Part shown: piece by piece, positions 55,306-64,000 of the stretch
How the letters are laid out: every line of letters begins with the position of its first letter
Numbering within the stretch: the first letter of the stretch is position 1
Source of the DNA: Acidobacteriota bacterium
GTDB taxonomy: Bacteria > Acidobacteriota > Terriglobia > Terriglobales > Acidobacteriaceae
Length of the DNA stretch: 64,000 bases
Assembly (NCBI GenBank): GCA_013289685.1
Contig: JABCZL010000001.1
Span: 251,838-315,837, forward strand
Direction: 5' to 3'
Made by a program: the position numbers and the translations under genes
The notes under the pieces: model-generated
Databases searched by the model: none
What the model was told of the DNA's origin: nothing
The model's input: only the letters and a program-made list of their open reading frames with translations

Positions 55306-55401
55306 ATGACGACTCTCATCCAGAAATCCACGCGAATTACATCGACAGGCACAGGTATGTCGACACGAATTACGTGTCTTCTGGAGGACGGGATCGGATG
55401 A
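55306..55401 (+). CDS. threonine/isoleucine-rich leader peptide of the aspartokinase gene
   Basis: A 31-codon reading frame starting MTTLIQKSTRITSTGTG. It has eight Thr (2, 3, 9, 12, 14, 16, 20, 23) and four Ile (5, 11, 22, 30); E. coli thrL is likewise Thr/Ile-rich. It contains a duplicated STRIT block. It ends 30 bases before a strong terminator that precedes the aspartokinase gene. Ribosome stalling at Thr codons should free the antiterminator arm at 55380. The start ATG has no strong Shine-Dalgarno; TTG at 55282 would add eight residues. Too short for ordinary gene calling. Confidence 0.78.
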   Translation: MTTLIQKSTRITSTGTGMSTRITCLLEDGIG

Positions 55402-55443
55402 AGTAAAGCACCCTTAAAAGAATCACCCGAACCCACCGCCAGA
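55380..55443 (+). promoter_or_regulatory. antiterminator pairing of the Thr attenuator
   Basis: TCTGGAGGACGGGATCGG (55380-55397) can pair with CCGAACCCACCGCCAGA (55427-55443): about 15 base pairs with two mismatches and one extra base. The 3' partner is also the 5' arm of the terminator, so the two structures exclude each other. The 5' arm overlaps the last leader codons, so a ribosome that reaches the stop would mask it. Confidence 0.7.
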
Positions 55444-55466
55444 AGCGATCTGGCGGTGGGTTTTTC
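55431..55466 (+). terminator. intrinsic terminator of the aspartokinase leader
   Basis: ACCCACCGCCAGA (55431-55443), loop AGCGA, and TCTGGCGGTGGGT (55449-55461) form a perfect 13-bp stem followed by TTTTTC. It lies 35 bases upstream of the aspartokinase start, where it can only act as an attenuator. Confidence 0.9.
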
Positions 55467-55500: not shown

Positions 55501-56970
55501 ATGAGCGAACATATCGGCGAACAAAGAACCGAACGACCGCGACAAAGCAGATTCGAGCGAGGCGATGAGCTGGTGGTGATGAAGTTCGGCGGCACGTCGG
55601 TGGAGGATGCCGCCGCAATCAGCCGGCTCATCGGTATCGTTCGGAGCCGACTGGGCGCGCAGCCGGTAGTCGTGGTAAGTGCGCTGGCCAGAGTCACCGA
55701 TCAACTGCTCGAGGCGGGAAACGCGGCGGCGAACGGCCATCTCGGCTTGGCGCTTGCCACAGTGCGGAGCATCTATGTTCGGCATGAGCAATTGGCGGAC
55801 TTGCTCGTCAATGAATCCGCATATAGCGCCCTTGATCGCGAACTGCGCAGCGAGTTTCGGGCTCTGGAATCGCTGCTGCACGATCTGGAAGCGTCGCGCC
55901 AACTCGATCTCAAATCACAGGACCATCTGTTGGGGTTTGGGGAATGCTTTTCCAGCAGGCTGGTGAAGGAGGCTCTGTGCCAGGCTGGAGTAACCGCGGC
56001 GCACGTCGATGCGCGGGCTTGCATCGTGACCGACGCACGCCATGGCCAAGCTAGCCCGGTCTGGGACGCGACCGAGCAGAGGCTTCAGCAGGCTTTGAGT
56101 CCGCTGCTGGAGAGCGGGCAGGTGCCGGTGTTGGGAGGGTTCATTGCCGCGACCTGCCATGGAGTGCCAACGACGCTGGGACGCGGCGGGTCCGACTTCA
56201 GCGCTGCGATTGTCGGGGCAGCGCTGCGTGCCACCCGCATCGAGATCTGGACCGACGTGGATGGCATCATGACGGCCGATCCCAAGCTTTGTTCCGACGC
56301 GCGCGTGATCCGCAAGATGAGTTTTGATGAGGCGGCAGAGCTAGCTCACTTTGGAGCGAAAGTCCTGCATCCTTCGACGCTGGCTCCGGCCGTGCGGGAG
56401 AACATTCCCGTTTATATTTTGAATTCGAGACGGCCGGAAGGCGAAGGAACGGAAATCGTCGCCCGCGTAAAAGGCGGCAGCGTCGTAAGCGCCATCACCG
56501 CGAAGAGAACCGTCGCGGCGGTTGAGATTGAGTCCCCGCAGGGGGTCGGCTCGGAGTTGTTGCGTGCGGTGTATGCGGCATTCGACCGGCATTCCTGCCC
56601 CGTGGATTTGATGGCGACGTCGCTGGGGCGTGTGTCGTTGCTGGTCGGATCGACGGCGGCATTACCCGCGATTGCTGCCGATCTCCGAGGCGTAGCCGAT
56701 GTGCGCTGGGAAAATCACAAGGCGCTGGTGTGCCTGGTGGGAGAAAACATTCGAAGACAGCCGGAGGTGGCTAGCCGCGTTTTCGCAGCCGTCGCGGATA
56801 TGGACGTGCGCGTCGTATGCCAGGGGGCTTCGGACCGAACGATTTCTTTCCTGGTGGAAGAGTCGAAAGCTGATGAGTCGGTGCAGCGCCTGCACGGAAT
56901 CTTCTTCCCCCAGCAAGAACCCGCGCGTGACTGGGGAGGGATCTCCAGCGCCTTCTGCCAGGCAGGTTGA
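55501..56970 (+). CDS. lysC: aspartate kinase
   Basis: Phosphorylates aspartate, the first step to threonine, methionine and lysine. The 489-aa protein contains VVMKFGGTSVEDAAAI near residue 22, GRGGSDFSAAIVGAAL near 225, the WTDVDGIMTADPK loop near 255, and two C-terminal ACT domains (about 335-470) for feedback control. It is the long monofunctional kind; no homoserine dehydrogenase domain is fused. The Thr/Ile leader upstream suggests threonine is the main signal in expression. It converges on cysH with 13 bp between. Confidence 0.93.
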   Translation: MSEHIGEQRTERPRQSRFERGDELVVMKFGGTSVEDAAAISRLIGIVRSRLGAQPVVVVSALARVTDQLLEAGNAAANGHLGLALATVRSIYVRHEQLADLLVNESAYSALDRELRSEFRALESLLHDLEASRQLDLKSQDHLLGFGECFSSRLVKEALCQAGVTAAHVDARACIVTDARHGQASPVWDATEQRLQQALSPLLESGQVPVLGGFIAATCHGVPTTLGRGGSDFSAAIVGAALRATRIEIWTDVDGIMTADPKLCSDARVIRKMSFDEAAELAHFGAKVLHPSTLAPAVRENIPVYILNSRRPEGEGTEIVARVKGGSVVSAITAKRTVAAVEIESPQGVGSELLRAVYAAFDRHSCPVDLMATSLGRVSLLVGSTAALPAIAADLRGVADVRWENHKALVCLVGENIRRQPEVASRVFAAVADMDVRVVCQGASDRTISFLVEESKADESVQRLHGIFFPQQEPARDWGGISSAFCQAG

Positions 56971-56983
56971 CCAAACCGCTGAA

Positions 56984-57745
56984 TCAGTTGCCGAGCTTTG
57001 CGGCTTTTGACGCACTAGCACCCGAAGCCGGCACCGGTTCAATGATGTGCAGACCGCACTCGGTCTTGGCAAATCCGGGCCAACGACCAGCACGCGGATC
57101 TTCTCCCGGCCGGACGGCGCGCGTGCAATGCGTGCAGCCGATGCTTGGGTAATCCTGATTGTGAAGTTCGTTGTAGGGGACGTCGTGGTCGTGGATATAG
57201 CGCCACACCTGCTTCGAGGTCCAGTCGACGATAGGATTGACTTTCACCAGGCCGAACTTGGCGTCCCATTCAACTCTGCGCGCGCCGGATCGTACGGAGG
57301 TCTGGTCGCGGCGAATGCTGGTGATCCACGCGCCGAGTTCGCTGAGTTTGCGGCGAAGCGGCTCGACTTTTCGCAGGTTGCAGCAGAGGTCGGGATCGCG
57401 CGTCCACAGAGCAGCGCCGTGAGTGCGCTCCTGCTCCTCGGGCGAGAGCTCGGAGCACACTTTCTCGATGGCGATGCCGTACTTTTCTTCGATCCTGTCC
57501 ATCAAGTTGTAGGTTTCGGGAAAAAGGAATTCTGTGTCGATGGTGAAGAGGCGGAAGTCTTTGCGTACGCGCGAAGCCATATCGATCAGCACCATCCCCT
57601 CGGCGCCGAATGCCGAGGAAATCGCTACCCGGTTTCCGAAAGTCTCGAACGCCCAAGTCAGAGCGTGCTGGGGAGTCCAGCTCTCCGCCAATTGCTGAAC
57701 GTCTGCGATTTGGTCCTGGATGTGCTGCTGAATCTGGTTCTTCAC
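56984..57745 (-). CDS. cysH: adenylyl-sulfate (APS/PAPS) reductase
   Basis: Reduces activated sulfate to sulfite. The 253-aa protein carries SSAFGAEGMVLIDM near residue 45, and the iron-sulfur Cys pairs CCNLRK near 122 and CTHC near 210, which mark the [4Fe-4S] bacterial APS-reductase type rather than the E. coli PAPS type. The catalytic ECGLH is near the C-terminus. Last gene of the sulfur operon; its start overlaps the upstream SUMT gene by four bases. Confidence 0.93.
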   Translation of the reverse strand: MKNQIQQHIQDQIADVQQLAESWTPQHALTWAFETFGNRVAISSAFGAEGMVLIDMASRVRKDFRLFTIDTEFLFPETYNLMDRIEEKYGIAIEKVCSELSPEEQERTHGAALWTRDPDLCCNLRKVEPLRRKLSELGAWITSIRRDQTSVRSGARRVEWDAKFGLVKVNPIVDWTSKQVWRYIHDHDVPYNELHNQDYPSIGCTHCTRAVRPGEDPRAGRWPGFAKTECGLHIIEPVPASGASASKAAKLGN

Positions 57746-58569
57746 GGGAGAGGCTCCTCAGTTGTTTCGAAATCTGGAGTTGCAAATAGCGGCGTGGGGA
57801 GAGCGCCGTCTTTGACCGCAGAAAGGTCCGGCGCTCCGAATTGCTGGGCAAGAGCAACGGGGTCGGCAAAGCGCACGACTTCTCCGACGACCAGAAGCGT
57901 GGGAGCGGCGAGCTTTGGCGAGCGGTGCAACTCGGCGATCGTGGAACGGTGCGTTCGCTGGTGCGGGGTTGTGGCACGTGAAATGACCGCACAGGGCGTC
58001 TCGCCGGCAAGTCCAGCCGCCTTCAGCTTGGCCGCAACCTCGGCGTACCTCTGTCCGGGCATGTAAATCACCAACGTCGCGCCGCTTCCCGCCAGCTTGC
58101 TCCAGTTGGCGGCCTCACTCTCCGATGCCTGGTGCGCAGTGATGAATACCAGCGCTGATGACGCGCGGCGATGAGTCAACGGGATCTGCGCTGCGGCGGC
58201 CGCGCCCAATGCCGAGGTCACGCCAGGTACGATTTCGTGAGGAATGTTGGCCCGGCGCAGCGCTTCGATTTCTTCTCCGGCTCGTCCGAAGATCATTGGA
58301 TCTCCGCTCTTCAGCCGGACCACTCGCAACCCAGACTCGGCGAGCGCAACCATTAGAAAGTTGATTTCCTCCTGCAGGATGTTTTTCTTTCCGCAGCGTT
58401 TGCCGACGTTGTGAACCTGCGCCGCGGCAGGAATGAGTTTCAGAATCTCGGGGCTGACCAGGTCGTCGTGTAGCACGGCATTAGCCGTTTTCAGCACACG
58501 CAGCGCTTTCAGCGTCAGCAACTCCGGGTCGCCCGGCCCCGCGCCCACCAGATAAACTTTCCCACTCAT
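57742..58569 (-). CDS. cobA: uroporphyrinogen-III C-methyltransferase (SUMT)
   Basis: Makes precorrin-2 from uroporphyrinogen III using SAM, the first step to siroheme, the cofactor of sulfite reductase. The 275-aa protein starts GKVYLVGAGPGDPELLTLKALRVL and has HDDLVSPEILKLIP, GDPMIFGRAGEEIEAL and PGVTSALGAAAAAQIPLTHR, all family signatures. It overlaps both neighbours by four bases. A separate downstream domain protein supplies the later siroheme steps. Confidence 0.95.
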   Translation of the reverse strand: MSGKVYLVGAGPGDPELLTLKALRVLKTANAVLHDDLVSPEILKLIPAAAQVHNVGKRCGKKNILQEEINFLMVALAESGLRVVRLKSGDPMIFGRAGEEIEALRRANIPHEIVPGVTSALGAAAAAQIPLTHRRASSALVFITAHQASESEAANWSKLAGSGATLVIYMPGQRYAEVAAKLKAAGLAGETPCAVISRATTPHQRTHRSTIAELHRSPKLAAPTLLVVGEVVRFADPVALAQQFGAPDLSAVKDGALPTPLFATPDFETTEEPLP

Positions 58570-59186
58570 GCTCCCTCTCCTTTGGCCACTAGTTCCGGTG
58601 TTTCGGCTAATGCTGCTTCCACCGCTTCCCTGCTGGCCAGCGAATGCAGCAGATCGAGCTTGCGTTCTTTGTCGAGATCGCTGGCGAGAATGAGCCTGCG
58701 AGTCTCACCGAGCTCGGCGACCCACGCGGCGTACCCTGGTCCGAATTGTTTTTCGAGCTGCTGGCGAATTTTCTGGGCGAGCGATGGACTCTGTCCGGCG
58801 GTCGAAACAGCGATCTGCAGATCGCCGCGGCGCACGACCGAGGGATAGAAGAAATCGCACAGATCCGGAACATCAACCACATTGCACAGCACGCCACGGC
58901 GCTGCGCTTCGTGATAAACCCGCTCGTTCAACGTGCGCGAATTCGTGGCCACGATTGCGAGGAACGCGCCGTCCAGATCGTCAGGCGAGAAGGCGCGCAG
59001 TTCGAGGTCGATCTTTCCGGCGCGTGCCCATTCACGGACTGCGGGAGTGGCGTCGAGCGCAACTACTCGTATGCGCGCACCCGTTTCCAGCAGGGTACCG
59101 ATCTTCGGCTCACCGACTTTTCCGGCGCCCACGACGAGGCATTGCCTGCCGTCCAGCTTTAGAAACATTGGGAACAAGTTAGTCAC
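58566..59186 (-). CDS. precorrin-2 dehydrogenase / siroheme ferrochelatase domain protein
   Basis: A 206-aa Met8/CysG N-terminal type enzyme that oxidises precorrin-2 and inserts iron to make siroheme. It has the NAD site CLVVGAGKVGEPKIGTLLETG, then VATNSRTLNERVYHEAQRRGVLCNVVDVPDLCDFFYPSVVRRGDLQIAVSTAGQSPSLAQKIR. GTG 59186 is the probable start, with AGGAGGG immediately upstream; ATG 59168 is the alternative. It overlaps the sulfite reductase gene end by eight bases. In E. coli this domain and SUMT are one CysG protein; here they are separate. Confidence 0.9.
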   Translation of the reverse strand: MTNLFPMFLKLDGRQCLVVGAGKVGEPKIGTLLETGARIRVVALDATPAVREWARAGKIDLELRAFSPDDLDGAFLAIVATNSRTLNERVYHEAQRRGVLCNVVDVPDLCDFFYPSVVRRGDLQIAVSTAGQSPSLAQKIRQQLEKQFGPGYAAWVAELGETRRLILASDLDKERKLDLLHSLASREAVEAALAETPELVAKGEGA

Positions 59187-60894
59187 CGAGCCCTCCTGCC
59201 TGAGCCAGACTCCGAGTGGGGTCCGGTAAATCGCGCGCGACCGGGGCCACGACTTCGCCGGCCAAGAACTCACGCAACTCCGTGTCGCTGTGATGAACGA
59301 AAAACTGGCGGAGATTTTCACCCGCTTCGCGCTGCGCAAGATAGCGCCCCAGCAAGCGCTCCAGCGCATCCGGCACTTCCGTGGCGGCGCAGCGATATCC
59401 GACCGGGCGCGCGGTCGCCTGGTGGAGGCCCAGCGCTCCACCCACGCAGAAGTAGTAGGCATCAACCATACGATCGTGAACTTTGATCTTCTTGCCTTCA
59501 ATGCCGATGTCGGCAATCCAGTGCTGTCCGCAGCTGTTGGGGCATCCGGTGACGTGCAGTTTGAGATGCTGGTCGAAACCGGGCAGGCGTTCTTCCAGTT
59601 CTTCCACCAGCCAGCGCGAGAAGCTTTTTGTTTCGGTGATAGCGAGCTTGCAGAATTCTGTTCCGCTGCAGGCCACCGTGCCGCGCCAGAAAGCCGAGCC
59701 GCCGACTTTCAGCCCGATCACATCGAGTTCTTTCGCCAGCGGTTCCGCGTTAAGCGTGGGCACGTTGACTACGAGCAGGTTTTGCATGTTAGTGGCACGC
59801 AACTCGCCGGTGGCGTAACGCTCGGCGAGATCCGCGGCAGCCTGCATCTGTTCCGCGGTAATTCGGCCGCGGAGCGCCACCGCTCCCACGTACGAGAGAC
59901 CGGACTGCTTCTGTGGATGGATCCCCACGTGGTCGCGGTAAACGTCGTCGGGTGGATGTTCTTCTGCGGCGGAATCGAGTTGAAATCCGATGCGGTCTTG
60001 CAGCTCGCTGAGAAAACGATCAGCAGTCCATCCATGACGAAGGAAGAGAAACTTCAGACGGGCGCGCTCGCGATGTTCGCGCAACACGTCGGAATCGCGG
60101 AAGAGTTCGGCAATCCCTTTAACGACCGGCAGAACCTGATTCCATCGCACAAATGCATTCAGTCGCGCTCCAAGATAAGGTTCTGTTGAAAGCCCGCCGG
60201 CGACTCGCAACGAGAACCCGACTTCGGGCGTTCCATCAACCACACGGGTCAGGGCGGTCAGGCCGATGTCATTAATTTCGGGATAGGGGCACCACACTCG
60301 GCATCCCGTGATCGAGATTTTGAATTTGCGCGGCAGGTTGTAGAAGTCGGCATTCCCTGCCAGCAACCGTGAGGCTTCCAGCACTAAGGGCGACGCGTCA
60401 ACGATTTCATCCGCGTCCACTCCGGCGACCGGGCATCCGGTGACGTTGCGCACGACGTCGCCGCAAGCTCCCGTGGTGTTGAGTCCGACCTGCCATAGTC
60501 CGTCGAGCACTTCCGGCAGCGACTCGATGGTGACCCAGTGCAGTTGAATGTTTTGGCGTACGGTAAGGTCGGCGATTCCGTTGGCGTGGCGGCGCGTGAG
60601 GTCGGCGATGGTGCGCAGTTGATGAGAGGTCATCATGCCGTTAGGGATGCGGATGCGCACCATGAAACGCTGCAGAGCGCGGCCAACGCCGCCCTGGCCG
60701 CCGGTTACACCCGCGCCGTCTCCCTGGGTGTAAACGCCCCACCAGCGGAAATAGGTTCCAATCCACTCGGGAGGGATGGACTGGAAGCCTTCGCGGGCGA
60801 AGCGGCGAATTTCCTCCAGGCCTTCCCACGGATTCTTAGCCCGCTTCAGGCGCTCGACCCGCTGTGCTGTGGTTTCTTTCGCTGTCGTTGTCAT
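59179..60894 (-). CDS. assimilatory sulfite reductase (ferredoxin/nitrite-sulfite family)
   Basis: Six-electron siroheme enzyme reducing sulfite to sulfide. The 571-aa protein has two ferredoxin-like half domains (RIPNGMMTSHQLRTIADLTRRHANG) and the siroheme-[4Fe-4S] Cys set CSGTEFC near residue 412 and CPNSC near 453. Sequence alone cannot separate sulfite from nitrite reductases of this family. The operon (siroheme and APS-reductase genes) and the Cys-rich leader peptide upstream strongly favour sulfite. It is first in the operon. Confidence 0.92.
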   Translation of the reverse strand: MTTTAKETTAQRVERLKRAKNPWEGLEEIRRFAREGFQSIPPEWIGTYFRWWGVYTQGDGAGVTGGQGGVGRALQRFMVRIRIPNGMMTSHQLRTIADLTRRHANGIADLTVRQNIQLHWVTIESLPEVLDGLWQVGLNTTGACGDVVRNVTGCPVAGVDADEIVDASPLVLEASRLLAGNADFYNLPRKFKISITGCRVWCPYPEINDIGLTALTRVVDGTPEVGFSLRVAGGLSTEPYLGARLNAFVRWNQVLPVVKGIAELFRDSDVLREHRERARLKFLFLRHGWTADRFLSELQDRIGFQLDSAAEEHPPDDVYRDHVGIHPQKQSGLSYVGAVALRGRITAEQMQAAADLAERYATGELRATNMQNLLVVNVPTLNAEPLAKELDVIGLKVGGSAFWRGTVACSGTEFCKLAITETKSFSRWLVEELEERLPGFDQHLKLHVTGCPNSCGQHWIADIGIEGKKIKVHDRMVDAYYFCVGGALGLHQATARPVGYRCAATEVPDALERLLGRYLAQREAGENLRQFFVHHSDTELREFLAGEVVAPVARDLPDPTRSLAQAGGLGD

Positions 60895-60925
60895 AAGTTC
60901 AAAGCCTGGAAATTTTTATCCGGAA

Positions 60926-60963
60926 AATAAAAAACCCACCGCCAGATGCGTCTGGCGATGGGT
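60926..60963 (-). terminator. attenuator terminator of the sulfur operon
   Basis: On the minus strand ACCCATCGCCAGA (60963-60951), loop CGCA, and TCTGGCGGTGGGT (60946-60934) pair over 13 positions with one G-U, followed by TTTTTATT. On the plus strand the same position would be an A-C mismatch, so the hairpin is adapted to minus-strand transcription. It lies between the leader peptide and the sulfite reductase start. Confidence 0.88.
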
Positions 60964-61020
60964 TGATGAGTGCCTTGTTAAGAAAGAATTCTTAGGTCAG
61001 CAGCCTCCCCGCGCCAGCGC
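60948..61020 (-). promoter_or_regulatory. antiterminator pairing of the Cys attenuator
   Basis: GCGCTGGCG (minus strand 61020-61012, within the leader peptide) and CGCCAGACGC (60957-60948, terminator 5' arm plus loop) pair as nine base pairs with one bulged A. This excludes the terminator. A ribosome at the leader stop would cover the first segment and favour termination. Confidence 0.68.
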
Positions 61021-61057
61021 ACACACATGCACAACAACAACAAGTGCAGAAGCACAT
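60992..61057 (-). CDS. cysteine-rich leader peptide of the sulfur operon
   Basis: A 21-codon frame beginning MCFCTCCCCACVC: eight Cys in the first 13 residues, then AGAGRLLT. Cys codons are mixed TGC and TGT. It lies in the ~200-base leader of a cysteine-synthesis operon, 29 bases before the terminator hairpin. Codons 13-16 contain GCGCTGGCG, which can pair with CGCCAGACGC at the terminator's 5' arm. Stalling on Cys codons when Cys-tRNA is scarce should expose this segment and allow read-through. No Shine-Dalgarno is evident. Comparable Cys-run leaders are known in mycobacteria. Confidence 0.85.
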   Translation of the reverse strand: MCFCTCCCCACVCAGAGRLLT

Positions 61058-61095
61058 CGCGCGAAGATTTTGACTATCCGGCATTTGCAGTCTGA

Positions 61096-61124
61096 ATTCT
61101 AAGTTGAGCGGCCCGCGCCGTCAA
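61096..61124 (-). promoter_or_regulatory. sigma70-type promoter of the sulfur operon leader
   Basis: On the minus strand TTGACG (61124-61119), a 17-base spacer and TAGAAT (61101-61096) are close to the consensus. Transcription would start near 61089, about 30 bases before the leader-peptide ATG. Confidence 0.75.
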
Positions 61125-61313
61125 CAATCTTATGTAACGGCTTGGATTCATAATTTGGATGGAAAGAATCACAATTTTTGCAGGCACCGCGCAGATTGCG
61201 CGAGATCACTGTAGAATCAGCAGCTTAGCGTCCGAACATTTGTTGGGTGATAATCTTTGGTGGCTTGCGTAGGCGGCGCGCACGTCTACTCTCGCGGGAA
61301 AGGTGCGTCTTCG

Positions 61314-64000
61314 ATGAAGGGTTCCTTTGTCTTCTTAGTACTCGTAGTTCTGCTAGGTGCGGCTTTTGCCGTTTCCCAGACTTCAGCTCCCGATCCTTAT
61401 AAGCCAACACTCGATCGGCTCGACGCGCTCACGCGCCAGGGCGAGGCCGAGTGGCGATTTCATGCGGACGTTCCGCATCCGGAAGATCCGGGGATGAATG
61501 ATTCCGACTGGGGCACGCTGACGGTGAAGAATGTTTCTGGGCCGGGCGGAAGTAATGCAAATGAGCAGCATTGGAAAGGAACCCGCGTGTTCCGCCGGTT
61601 GATTCAGATTCCGGAAAAGATCAACGGCTATGCGACTCAAGGCGCTCGGGTGTCGCTTGATCTGCGATTTGGCAGTCCGGGAAGCTTGCGGATCACTGTC
61701 TTCTCGAACGGAGCAATTCTCTACCGTGGCAGCGACGATGACATTCTGCCCGTGCTTCTGACCGAGAGCGCGCAGCCGGGGCAGAAGTTTCTGGTTGCCG
61801 CCAGAGTGGTCGCGGGAGACGACGTGCAGTCGGAATTCTTTCACAGCGAGCTTACGATCGAGCCACCGCACACGCGCCCGAATCCTGTGTTTCTTAGGAC
61901 GGAACTGCTCGCCGCCCGGCCCATCATCGCGGCTTATGAAGAAGGAAAGGCGGAGCGCCAACAGCAACTGGATGCTGCGATCAAAGCGATTGATTTCTCG
62001 CCGCTCGAAAAAGGCGATCAGGCCGCCTTCGATGCTTCGCTCAAACAAGCTCATGCCAAGCTGGAGGTGCTCAAGCCGTGGCTGCAGCAATTCAACATTC
62101 GGATCATCGGCAATTCGCACATTGATATGGCCTGGCTGTGGCCGTGGACCGAGACTGTGGAAGTCGTGCGTAACACCTTCCAGAGCGTGCTGGATTTGAT
62201 GCGCGAGTATCCGGACTTCAAGTTCACTATGTCGTCCGCCCGCACTTACGAGTGGATGCAGGAAAAATATCCCGACCTCTTCCAGCAGATCGAGCAGCGT
62301 GTGAAGGAGGGCCGGTGGGAGATTATCGGCGGCATGTGGGTCGAGCCTGACTTGAATATGCCGGACGGTGAGTCGCTGGTGCGCCAGATACTGGTGGGCA
62401 AGCGCTACTTCCAGAAGAATTTTGGCGTGGACGTGAAGATTGGATGGAATCCGGATTCGTTCGGTTATAACTACCAGCTGCCGCAGATTTATAAGAAGTC
62501 CGGCATGGATTATTTCGTCACCCAGAAGCTGCTGTGGGCGCACGAATTCACGGTGTTCCCCTACAAGCTGTTCTGGTGGCAGGCGCCCGACGGCAGCCGT
62601 CTGCTCACGTATTTCCCGCACGACTACGCCGGCGGCATCGATGCCGAGCCGCTAGCGACCGACCTCTCGATCTGGATGCCGTCGATCTATGGCAAGGGCA
62701 TTCCCGAGAAACCTGAGATGATGCACCTGTACGGCGTGGGCGACCACGGCGGCGGGCCGACCCGCATCATGCTCGACCACGCAGACCAACTGCGGGCGCC
62801 GGACGCGGTGTACCCGAAACTGGAGTTCAGCTTCGCGCGCGACTTCTTCAGCGACCTGGAAAAGAAGCTTCCCGGTATGCAGGTTCCGACCTGGGATGGT
62901 GAACTCTACTTCGCCTACCACCGCGGAGTCTTCACGACGCAGGCCGAGACGAAGCGCAGAATCCGCCGCGCCGAGGAAGCGGTGCTTAACGCCGAGAAAT
63001 TCGCTTCGCTGGCGTCGCTCTACGGGAGGCCCTACCCGAGCGATGGCATGGAGCAGACGTGGAAGAATTTGCTGTTCGATCACTTCCACGACATCATGCC
63101 CGGTTCTGGGATTGCGGTGAACTATCTGGACGCAAAACGCAACCTGGAGAATGTAGATCGAGCCGCGAACGACGTCACCATTGGATCGTTGCGCGAGATT
63201 GCCGCGCGCGTCAACACGCAGGGCGAGGGAGTGCCGGTAATCATCTTCAATTCTTTGTCGTGGCCGCGAACCGAAGTGACTGAGGTCGAGGTGCAACTGC
63301 CCGTGCCAGCGCGGCAGATCGAAGTGGCGGACTCGAACGGAAAGCTGGCGGCGTCGCAACTGCTTTCCGTCGACGACGACACGCACCGCGTACGGTTGTT
63401 GCTGTCGGCCAACACACCATCGTTTGGCTACCGGACCTATTTCGTGCGTCCTGCCATGAGCGCGCAAGTCGTCCCTTCGACTCTAAGCGCATCTGCGGAT
63501 AGGATCGAGAACGAGTTCATTCGGGTGAAGATCGATCCGCAAACCGGCTGCATGACGAGTCTGTTCGACAAGCGGAGCGGCACAGAGGCGCTCGCGCCTG
63601 CGGAAACCGACTCAGGTGGACCCAAGACCTCAACTTGCGGCAACCTGCTGCAGACTTTCGTCGACAAGCCCAAACAATGGGACGCGTGGAATATTGACGC
63701 CGACTTCGAGAAGCAGCACTGGGATCTGGACAAGGCCGATGAAGTGAAGCTCACGGAGAGCGGGCCACTGCGGGCGGTCATTCAAATCAAGAATCATTTT
63801 CAGAACTCAACTTTCGTGCGCGACATCATCGTCTACGCCGGGGTGCCACGGGTCGATGTGAAGATGATGGCGGAATGGCATGAAAAACACATTTTGCTGA
63901 AAGTGGCATTTCCGCTGAGCGCGCACAATGACAAAGCGACGTTCGAGATTCCATTCGGTTCAGTGGAGCGGCCCACCACTCGCAACAGCCCGGCTGAACT
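61314..64000 (+). CDS. alpha-mannosidase, GH38 family (truncated by the window end)
   Basis: Glycoside hydrolase acting on alpha-mannosides. At least 895 residues are visible, open to the last base, so the C-terminus is missing. A signal peptide (MKGSFVFLVLVVLLGAAFAVSQ) suggests export. The GH38 catalytic domain starts about residue 260 with IIGNSHIDMAWLWPWTETVEV (zinc-binding His-x-Asp); the nucleophile Asp is in IGWNPDSFGYN near 385, and YGVGDHGGGPTR near 477 is also typical. The middle helical domain carries FDHFHDIMPGSG near 585. AAAGG precedes the ATG. It is divergent from the sulfur operon, with no functional link seen. Confidence 0.93.
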   Translation, partial: MKGSFVFLVLVVLLGAAFAVSQTSAPDPYKPTLDRLDALTRQGEAEWRFHADVPHPEDPGMNDSDWGTLTVKNVSGPGGSNANEQHWKGTRVFRRLIQIPEKINGYATQGARVSLDLRFGSPGSLRITVFSNGAILYRGSDDDILPVLLTESAQPGQKFLVAARVVAGDDVQSEFFHSELTIEPPHTRPNPVFLRTELLAARPIIAAYEEGKAERQQQLDAAIKAIDFSPLEKGDQAAFDASLKQAHAKLEVLKPWLQQFNIRIIGNSHIDMAWLWPWTETVEVVRNTFQSVLDLMREYPDFKFTMSSARTYEWMQEKYPDLFQQIEQRVKEGRWEIIGGMWVEPDLNMPDGESLVRQILVGKRYFQKNFGVDVKIGWNPDSFGYNYQLPQIYKKSGMDYFVTQKLLWAHEFTVFPYKLFWWQAPDGSRLLTYFPHDYAGGIDAEPLATDLSIWMPSIYGKGIPEKPEMMHLYGVGDHGGGPTRIMLDHADQLRAPDAVYPKLEFSFARDFFSDLEKKLPGMQVPTWDGELYFAYHRGVFTTQAETKRRIRRAEEAVLNAEKFASLASLYGRPYPSDGMEQTWKNLLFDHFHDIMPGSGIAVNYLDAKRNLENVDRAANDVTIGSLREIAARVNTQGEGVPVIIFNSLSWPRTEVTEVEVQLPVPARQIEVADSNGKLAASQLLSVDDDTHRVRLLLSANTPSFGYRTYFVRPAMSAQVVPSTLSASADRIENEFIRVKIDPQTGCMTSLFDKRSGTEALAPAETDSGGPKTSTCGNLLQTFVDKPKQWDAWNIDADFEKQHWDLDKADEVKLTESGPLRAVIQIKNHFQNSTFVRDIIVYAGVPRVDVKMMAEWHEKHILLKVAFPLSAHNDKATFEIPFGSVERPTTRNSPAE

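Follow-up and report, generated by a model that had tools for sequence, protein, structure and literature searches.

A putative cysteine leader-peptide attenuator ahead of an assimilatory sulfur operon in Acidobacteriota

The sulfur operon and its leader region

The window (the whole stretch of acidobacterial DNA that was analysed, 64,000 nucleotides) carries an assimilatory sulfur operon together with its putative attenuator, all on the minus strand, in the order promoter-like site, leader ORF, segment 2, terminator, sir, precorrin-2 dehydrogenase gene, SUMT gene and cysH. The leader region occupies the gap between sir and a divergent glycosyl hydrolase family 38 gene on the plus strand (61257 onward). 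The operon consists of sir (59179–60894, NirA/sulfite reductase family protein, 571 aa), a precorrin-2 dehydrogenase gene of the CysG N-terminal type (58566–59180, start approximate), the gene for uroporphyrinogen-III C-methyltransferase (SUMT; 57742–58569) and cysH, for a phosphoadenylyl-sulfate (or adenylyl-sulfate) reductase (56984–57745). The top NCBIfam models for the sir product were ferredoxin-nitrite reductase/NirA, both under cut-off, and the closest solved structure was NirA of 1zj8 (E 1.2e-89). The product was named sulfite reductase by context, from its siroheme and cysH neighbours, and sulfite reduction itself is inferred. The sulfur genes listed in an earlier note on this DNA (sulfite reductase, SUMT, siroheme, cysH) were all found downstream of the leader, with the first name resting on that context.

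A motif scan identified a promoter-like site at 61124–61096 (minus strand), with the -35 hexamer TTGACG (61124–61119), a 17-nt spacer and the -10 hexamer TAGAAT (61101–61096), the same TTGACG-N17-TAGAAT promoter that had been proposed before. It has 10 of 12 matches to a sigma-70-like consensus. The scan covered 701 bases and turned up no second site of this kind, with 0.4 expected from shuffles. The leader ATG lies 11 nt past the -10 hexamer, which leaves hardly any 5' UTR, so the mRNA is probably leaderless or nearly so. This is inferred from the -10 spacing alone; no RNA data were available, and the position of the transcription start is likewise an inference.

The leader peptide ORF (60992–61084, minus strand) has 30 codons, MPDSQNLRAMCFCTCCCCACVCAGAGRLLT, and ends in TAA; it was defined by ORF translation and is kept in relatives. 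The earlier note had described a frame of 21 codons starting MCFC. The ATG conserved in most relatives lies 9 codons upstream of that start; the leader was accordingly taken as 30 codons, and MCFC was ruled out as its beginning. The control codons are 8 Cys in 12 codons (codons 11–22, 61019–61054), 6 Cys in 8 codons at the densest, and include an uninterrupted run of four Cys at 61042–61031 in which every codon is TGT. Translation of the leader and ribosome stalling at the Cys codons are inferred, without translation data.

Between the leader and sir lies an intrinsic terminator hairpin (segments 3 and 4; 60933–60964, minus strand), AACCCATCGCCAGACGCATCTGGCGGTGGGTT, of 14 pairs, followed by the T-rich tail TTTTATTTTC (60932–60923). 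This agrees with the terminator and T-run already noted before sir. Three terminator-like sites were found in the region against 0.9 expected, the other two being weaker and on the plus strand. No Rfam match was obtained at E up to 1 in 60600–61400, and none at gathering level in the whole window. A T-box or other Rfam leader was ruled out by the absent covariance-model match.

Conservation of the leader and terminator in relatives

For comparison, 89 regions upstream of sir were collected. The genus supplied 33 and a second family of the same order 9, another 40 were chosen by hand from a list for the class (Terriglobia), and 7 came from a pattern scan (motif-picked). A search with sir found matches in 55 of 61 relatives and, at E≤1e-30, in 218 of 299 class genomes, with nitrite reductase-like paralogues among the weaker matches; the 40 hand-picked regions were drawn from these 218. 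Of the 33 genus genomes taken, 32 had usable upstream sequence. Four regions were dropped as too short (L008, L039, L093, L099), and 85 were analysed. Related upstream regions are not independent of each other. Two genomes of the same genus (G001 and G025, ~96% completeness) had no full sir match, and sulfate assimilation may be lost or different in them.

The pattern scan used a 24-base pattern for CCCCACVC on the genome_contigs collection, in which the window's own genome is possibly absent. It returned 47 loci. In 20 of them, each with an acidobacterial title, the motif ends a short leader that lies 82–191 nt upstream of an aligned sir and on its strand. For the remaining 27, of which 3 are acidobacterial by title, the DNA examined contained no sir match.

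A leader was scored where an ORF of ≤45 codons, with an ATG, GTG or TTG start, had at least 3 Cys in 8 codons. Such an ORF lies upstream of sir in 80 of 85 regions. The antisense strand has one in 1 of 85 regions, and 8500 dinucleotide-shuffled sequences have one in 9.8% of cases. With the threshold raised to 5 Cys per 8 codons, 48 of 85 regions still pass, compared with 0/85 antisense regions and 0.04% of the 8500 shuffles. Without the seven motif-picked regions the counts were 73/78 and 41/78. Chance or a simple repeat as the source of the Cys ORF was ruled out by these shuffle and antisense counts. A comparison with relatives had been proposed in the earlier note for Cys runs upstream of sir and for compensatory changes in both hairpins, and by these counts the Cys runs are conserved. 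Within the genus the peptide is kept beyond Cys too (GAGRLLT end). Between families Cys richness alone is kept, with the Cys codons retained in differing DNA.

Five of the 85 regions fail the leader rule (L042, L102, L103, L106, L129). L042 has CCR in an otherwise similar leader, and in L102 the leader sits farther upstream. No poly-Cys leader was seen upstream of sir in L106 and L129. L103 (genome G315) has a rearranged operon of the order cysD-cysN-cysH-sir, and fails because cysH there precedes sir; an ORF, MKFPTSRMGCLCCTCNVQTQFHAFCRVGV, and a T-tailed hairpin lie directly ahead of cysD, i.e. at the operon head, where a leader was predicted. Of 297 genomes sampled from the phylum, 29 matched the sir query at E≤1e-120, and a poly-Cys leader was absent at the only two of these matches outside the class (both f23).

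A hairpin with a T-rich stretch was found between leader and sir in 76 of the 80 leader-bearing regions, by a script run without a shuffled control, and was not found by it in four (L037, L045, L122, L125). Forty-one leaders were set in one alignment (32 from the genus, the 7 motif-picked, L094 and L095). In this alignment 96.1% of cells in the terminator stem are paired, 6 of 13 pairs carry two-sided changes, and 0 of 500 shuffles scored as high.

The promoter arrangement recurs as well. A TANNNT -10 element with a -35 element at 16–19 nt lies ahead of a leader start in 36 of the 41 aligned leaders; at 34 of these 36 promoters the -35 element has at least 5 of 6 matches, and in 33 the -10-to-start distance is 9–11 nt. 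In L010 the start is >20 nt past the -10 element, so this leader is not leaderless. Among the 39 other leader-bearing regions, 18 have such a promoter 4–13 nt ahead of a start, against 1.9% in shuffled upstream DNA.

Alternative pairings and codon choice

Segment 2 (61012–61020, minus strand), GCGCTGGCG, is the predicted antiterminator arm, with the core CTGGCG, at the end of the Cys codons. It is complementary to the 5' arm of the terminator with one bulged A, so that the leader segment previously held to pair with that arm does have its partner, at 61020–61012. Segment 1 (61058–61066, minus strand), CTTCGCGCG, is the predicted partner of segment 2 and the bases that follow it, on the strength of folding only. 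None of 200 dinucleotide shuffles of the window leader RNA folds as well as the RNA itself (z -4.04).

In the 41-leader alignment the 2:3 core CTGGCG/CGCCAG is invariant, with 98% of cells paired, and because of this invariance it shows no covariation. Of the compensatory changes looked for in both hairpins, those in the terminator were thus present (two-sided in 6 of 13 pairs) and those in the antiterminator core were not. The stretch after the Cys codons was also compared with the terminator 5' arm without an alignment, using 300 shuffles per region. Complementarity reached p<0.05 in 52 of 76 regions (26/32 genus, 7/7 motif-picked, 19/37 more distant). None was seen (p>0.25) in 12 of the 37 distant regions (L040, L041, L112, L113, L116, L117, L120, L121, L123, L124, L126, L128); in seven of them (L116, L117, L120, L123, L124, L126, L128) a Cys leader and a terminator are present in the absence of this complementarity. 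Where distant pairings exist they differ in sequence: TGTCGTC/GACGACA in L131, CCCGA/TCGGG in L108, GCTGCG/CGCAGC in L111, GTTCTGGC/GCCAGAAC in L130 and GATCTGGC/GCCAGATC in L132. Pairing kept with differing sequences is the pattern expected from selection on pairing. Sequence comparison gives good support to the predicted 2:3 pairing within the genus and, beyond it, in some of the other families. The antiterminator was not visible in about a third of the distant regions tested, so other means of blocking the terminator must act there.

Model folds of the complete leaders contained 3:4 in 41/41 and 1:2 in 39/41. When the leader was masked as far as 12 nt beyond the run's third Cys codon and segment 4 was not yet present, 2:3 formed in 41/41. 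With segment 1 hidden and segment 4 present, the 3:4 terminator won in 41/41. Since the terminator wins in full transcripts, antitermination must be kinetic, set by the order of synthesis. Such dependence is a trait of classical attenuators. The spacing from the Cys run to segment 2 is 25 nt in 33 of 41 leaders. Segment 2 was located by motif, so these fold counts illustrate the scheme and are not an independent test of it.

The 41 leaders are strongly biased in how they encode the uninterrupted Cys run, with UGU:UGC at 156:7, against 12:176 in 17 related sir genes and 5:50 in eight window genes. In leaders of other families, where these have 4 or more Cys per 8 codons, the ratio is 89:52. The rare synonymous codon is favoured at the place where stalling would matter; that it keeps the run free of RNA structure is just as possible a reason.

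Other candidate leaders were sought in the same genome. Matches to TGYTGYTGYTGY numbered 85 on both strands (44+41), about equal to the reversed control (24+37). Frames were inspected around 50 of the 85 (30 loci and 20 stretches), and one further likely leader, L151, was seen besides the window leader. A second Cys-rich short ORF, MRCCCCRPSCR, lies in L183 at 1400–1450 (genome contig 4, about 76335–76370), between a small sulfur-carrier-like ORF (identity by resemblance only) and a ThiF-rhodanese gene (Pfam). Twenty-seven loci of relatives were examined for it and three further loci were left out; the gene start could not be located in 9, and 11 of the remaining 18 have a CC-containing ORF ending like RCCxCxPxCR. 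No terminator was seen by eye near the MRCCCCRPSCR ORF.

Within the window itself, on the plus strand, a Thr-rich leader ORF (55306–55401), MTTLIQKSTRITSTGTGMSTRITCLLEDGIG, is followed by a terminator (55429–55463) before an aspartate kinase gene at 55501, and this looks like a threonine attenuator. Its terminator has almost the same sequence as that before sir. The kinase has relatives at E≤1e-150 in two other genomes, and in each the closest of them is preceded by a similar leader and terminator.

Proposed mechanism, rival explanations and known systems

Several features are expected of a leader-peptide attenuator. A short ORF rich in codons for the product amino acid of the operon is present (its translation is not shown), as is an intrinsic terminator between leader and first gene. 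An antiterminator exclusive with that terminator is supported for the window and the genus, and in distant regions for only 19 of 37 at p<0.05. For a single transcript that begins before the leader and runs into the operon, the one sign is the promoter-like site 11 nt ahead of the leader ATG, without RNA data. In our view the best reading of the locus, and a highly probable one, is ribosome-mediated transcription attenuation in response to charged Cys-tRNA. The attenuator proposed in the earlier note is in this respect supported by the conservation of the Cys run, the covariation of the terminator and the complementarity between leader and terminator.

Transcription would begin a few bases ahead of the leader ATG. 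With ample Cys-tRNA the ribosome would pass the Cys codons, and segment 2 would pair with segment 1 or be covered by the ribosome; the 3:4 terminator could then form, leaving sir to cysH untranscribed. When Cys-tRNA is scarce the ribosome would stall in the UGU run and cover segment 1, with segment 2 left free about 25 nt ahead to pair with segment 3 while segment 4 is still to come, so that no terminator forms and the operon is transcribed. What is observed is the set of parts and their conservation, covariation in the terminator, the skewed codon use and the spacing. The transcription start, the stalling, the switching and the response to cysteine are inferred in the absence of expression data.

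It is conceivable that the leader acts on translation instead, as in mycobacteria, with stalling opening the sir ribosome-binding site and the hairpin being incidental. The Cys-codon sensor and near-leaderless start are as in M. smegmatis (PMC9031893 and PMC13236596, both available in part), and two of eight f2 regions (L037, L045) have a Cys ORF in which the script found no terminator after it. This is nevertheless improbable, since 76 of 80 regions have a T-tailed hairpin after the leader and before sir, the hairpin covaries in the 41-leader set, and the leader is complementary to the terminator arm, in a comparison that did not extend to the start region of sir. The leader ORF might also encode a working Cys-rich mini-protein of the operon, binding metal or serving in redox, as its non-Cys conservation within the genus would suggest. 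However, the conserved GAGRLLT end overlaps RNA segment 2, Cys richness is all that is kept between families, and protein function does not require the otherwise rare UGU in the run, which makes a mini-protein very improbable.

Stalling could further report a signal other than charging. In some bacteria tRNA-Cys bears a sulfur-containing modification at A37, and undermodified tRNA-Cys under sulfur or iron shortage might act through UGU, for which the strong preference for this codon in the run can be adduced. Plain charging accounts for the same facts, there are no modification data, and only a slim chance is left to this idea. That the terminator is under protein or riboswitch control, with the Cys ORF arising by chance or from a TTG repeat, draws on the (TTG)n-like appearance of the run; we give it next to no weight, as there is no Rfam match, chance is excluded and the Cys codons persist between families whose DNA differs here.

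The attenuator that we favour resembles several known systems. The classical leader-peptide attenuators of trp, his and thr operons are built of control codons, alternating pairings and a T-tailed terminator. Shared with them are the control codons for the product amino acid, the alternating 1:2, 2:3 and 3:4 pairings and the position of the terminator before the first gene. The acidobacterial leader differs in the amino acid, cysteine, in the rare synonymous codon of its control run and in a start 9–11 nt past the -10 element (33/36), which leaves hardly any space, if any, for a ribosome-binding site. In Firmicutes, T-box and SAM riboswitches control cysteine and methionine genes. These likewise exert RNA-level control of termination at sulfur amino-acid genes, but the acidobacterial locus has no Rfam match and has a Cys leader ORF. 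Control of sulfur amino-acid genes by T-box and SAM riboswitches is cited in PMC1262725.

That paper and the others named here were available in part only, and statements on them are limited to those parts. The Cys leaders that Seliverstov 2005 (PMC1262725) described, from the Actinobacteria Mycobacterium, P. acnes and B. longum, lacked obvious terminators. Attenuation by cysteine was put forward for mycobacteria in Shell 2015 (PMC4633059), as something unprecedented in bacteria, and translation attenuation by leaderless polycysteine ORFs is attributed to Canestrari 2020 in PMC13236596 and PMC9031893. The earlier note had held that mycobacterial Cys leaders act in the way proposed here, which does not fit these sources: no obvious terminators (PMC1262725) and an effect reported on translation (PMC13236596, PMC9031893). 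What is shared is a short Cys-run ORF heading cysteine or sulfur operons, a leaderless or nearly leaderless start and the sensing of amino-acid supply by the ribosome. The acidobacterial leaders conform to the mycobacterial type in having a polycysteine short ORF, leaderless by inference from the -10 spacing, before sulfur genes. They depart from it in that a covarying terminator follows (site sequestration was not compared), whereas the mycobacterial leaders have no obvious terminator and are reported to act on translation. Compared by eye only, the peptides are unlike beyond Cys.

A 2010 survey (PMC2965389) lists almost no predicted acidobacterial attenuators with an assigned function. No description of a Cys leader with a terminator, nor of any Cys leader in Acidobacteria, was found in the literature searched, which leaves out most subscription journals; within that limit, the earlier suggestion that the case may be undescribed in this lineage stands. 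New, within the same limit, is the inferred output, transcription termination, while the leader-peptide principle is known, and so is the cysteine signal, from mycobacteria.

A wider proposal, which we think could about equally well hold or fail, is that a near-leaderless poly-UGU leader with a terminator, undescribed in the literature found, extends across the class Terriglobia, follows the front of the sulfur operon when gene order changes and uses a codon chosen for its rarity to sense Cys-tRNA, and that together with the family of Cys ORFs before ThiF-rhodanese genes it makes up a cysteine attenuation regulon that has arisen in parallel with the mycobacterial one. A conserved Cys attenuator in this abundant and poorly understood soil phylum would mean that translation-based cysteine sensing reaches far beyond mycobacteria, with a different output.
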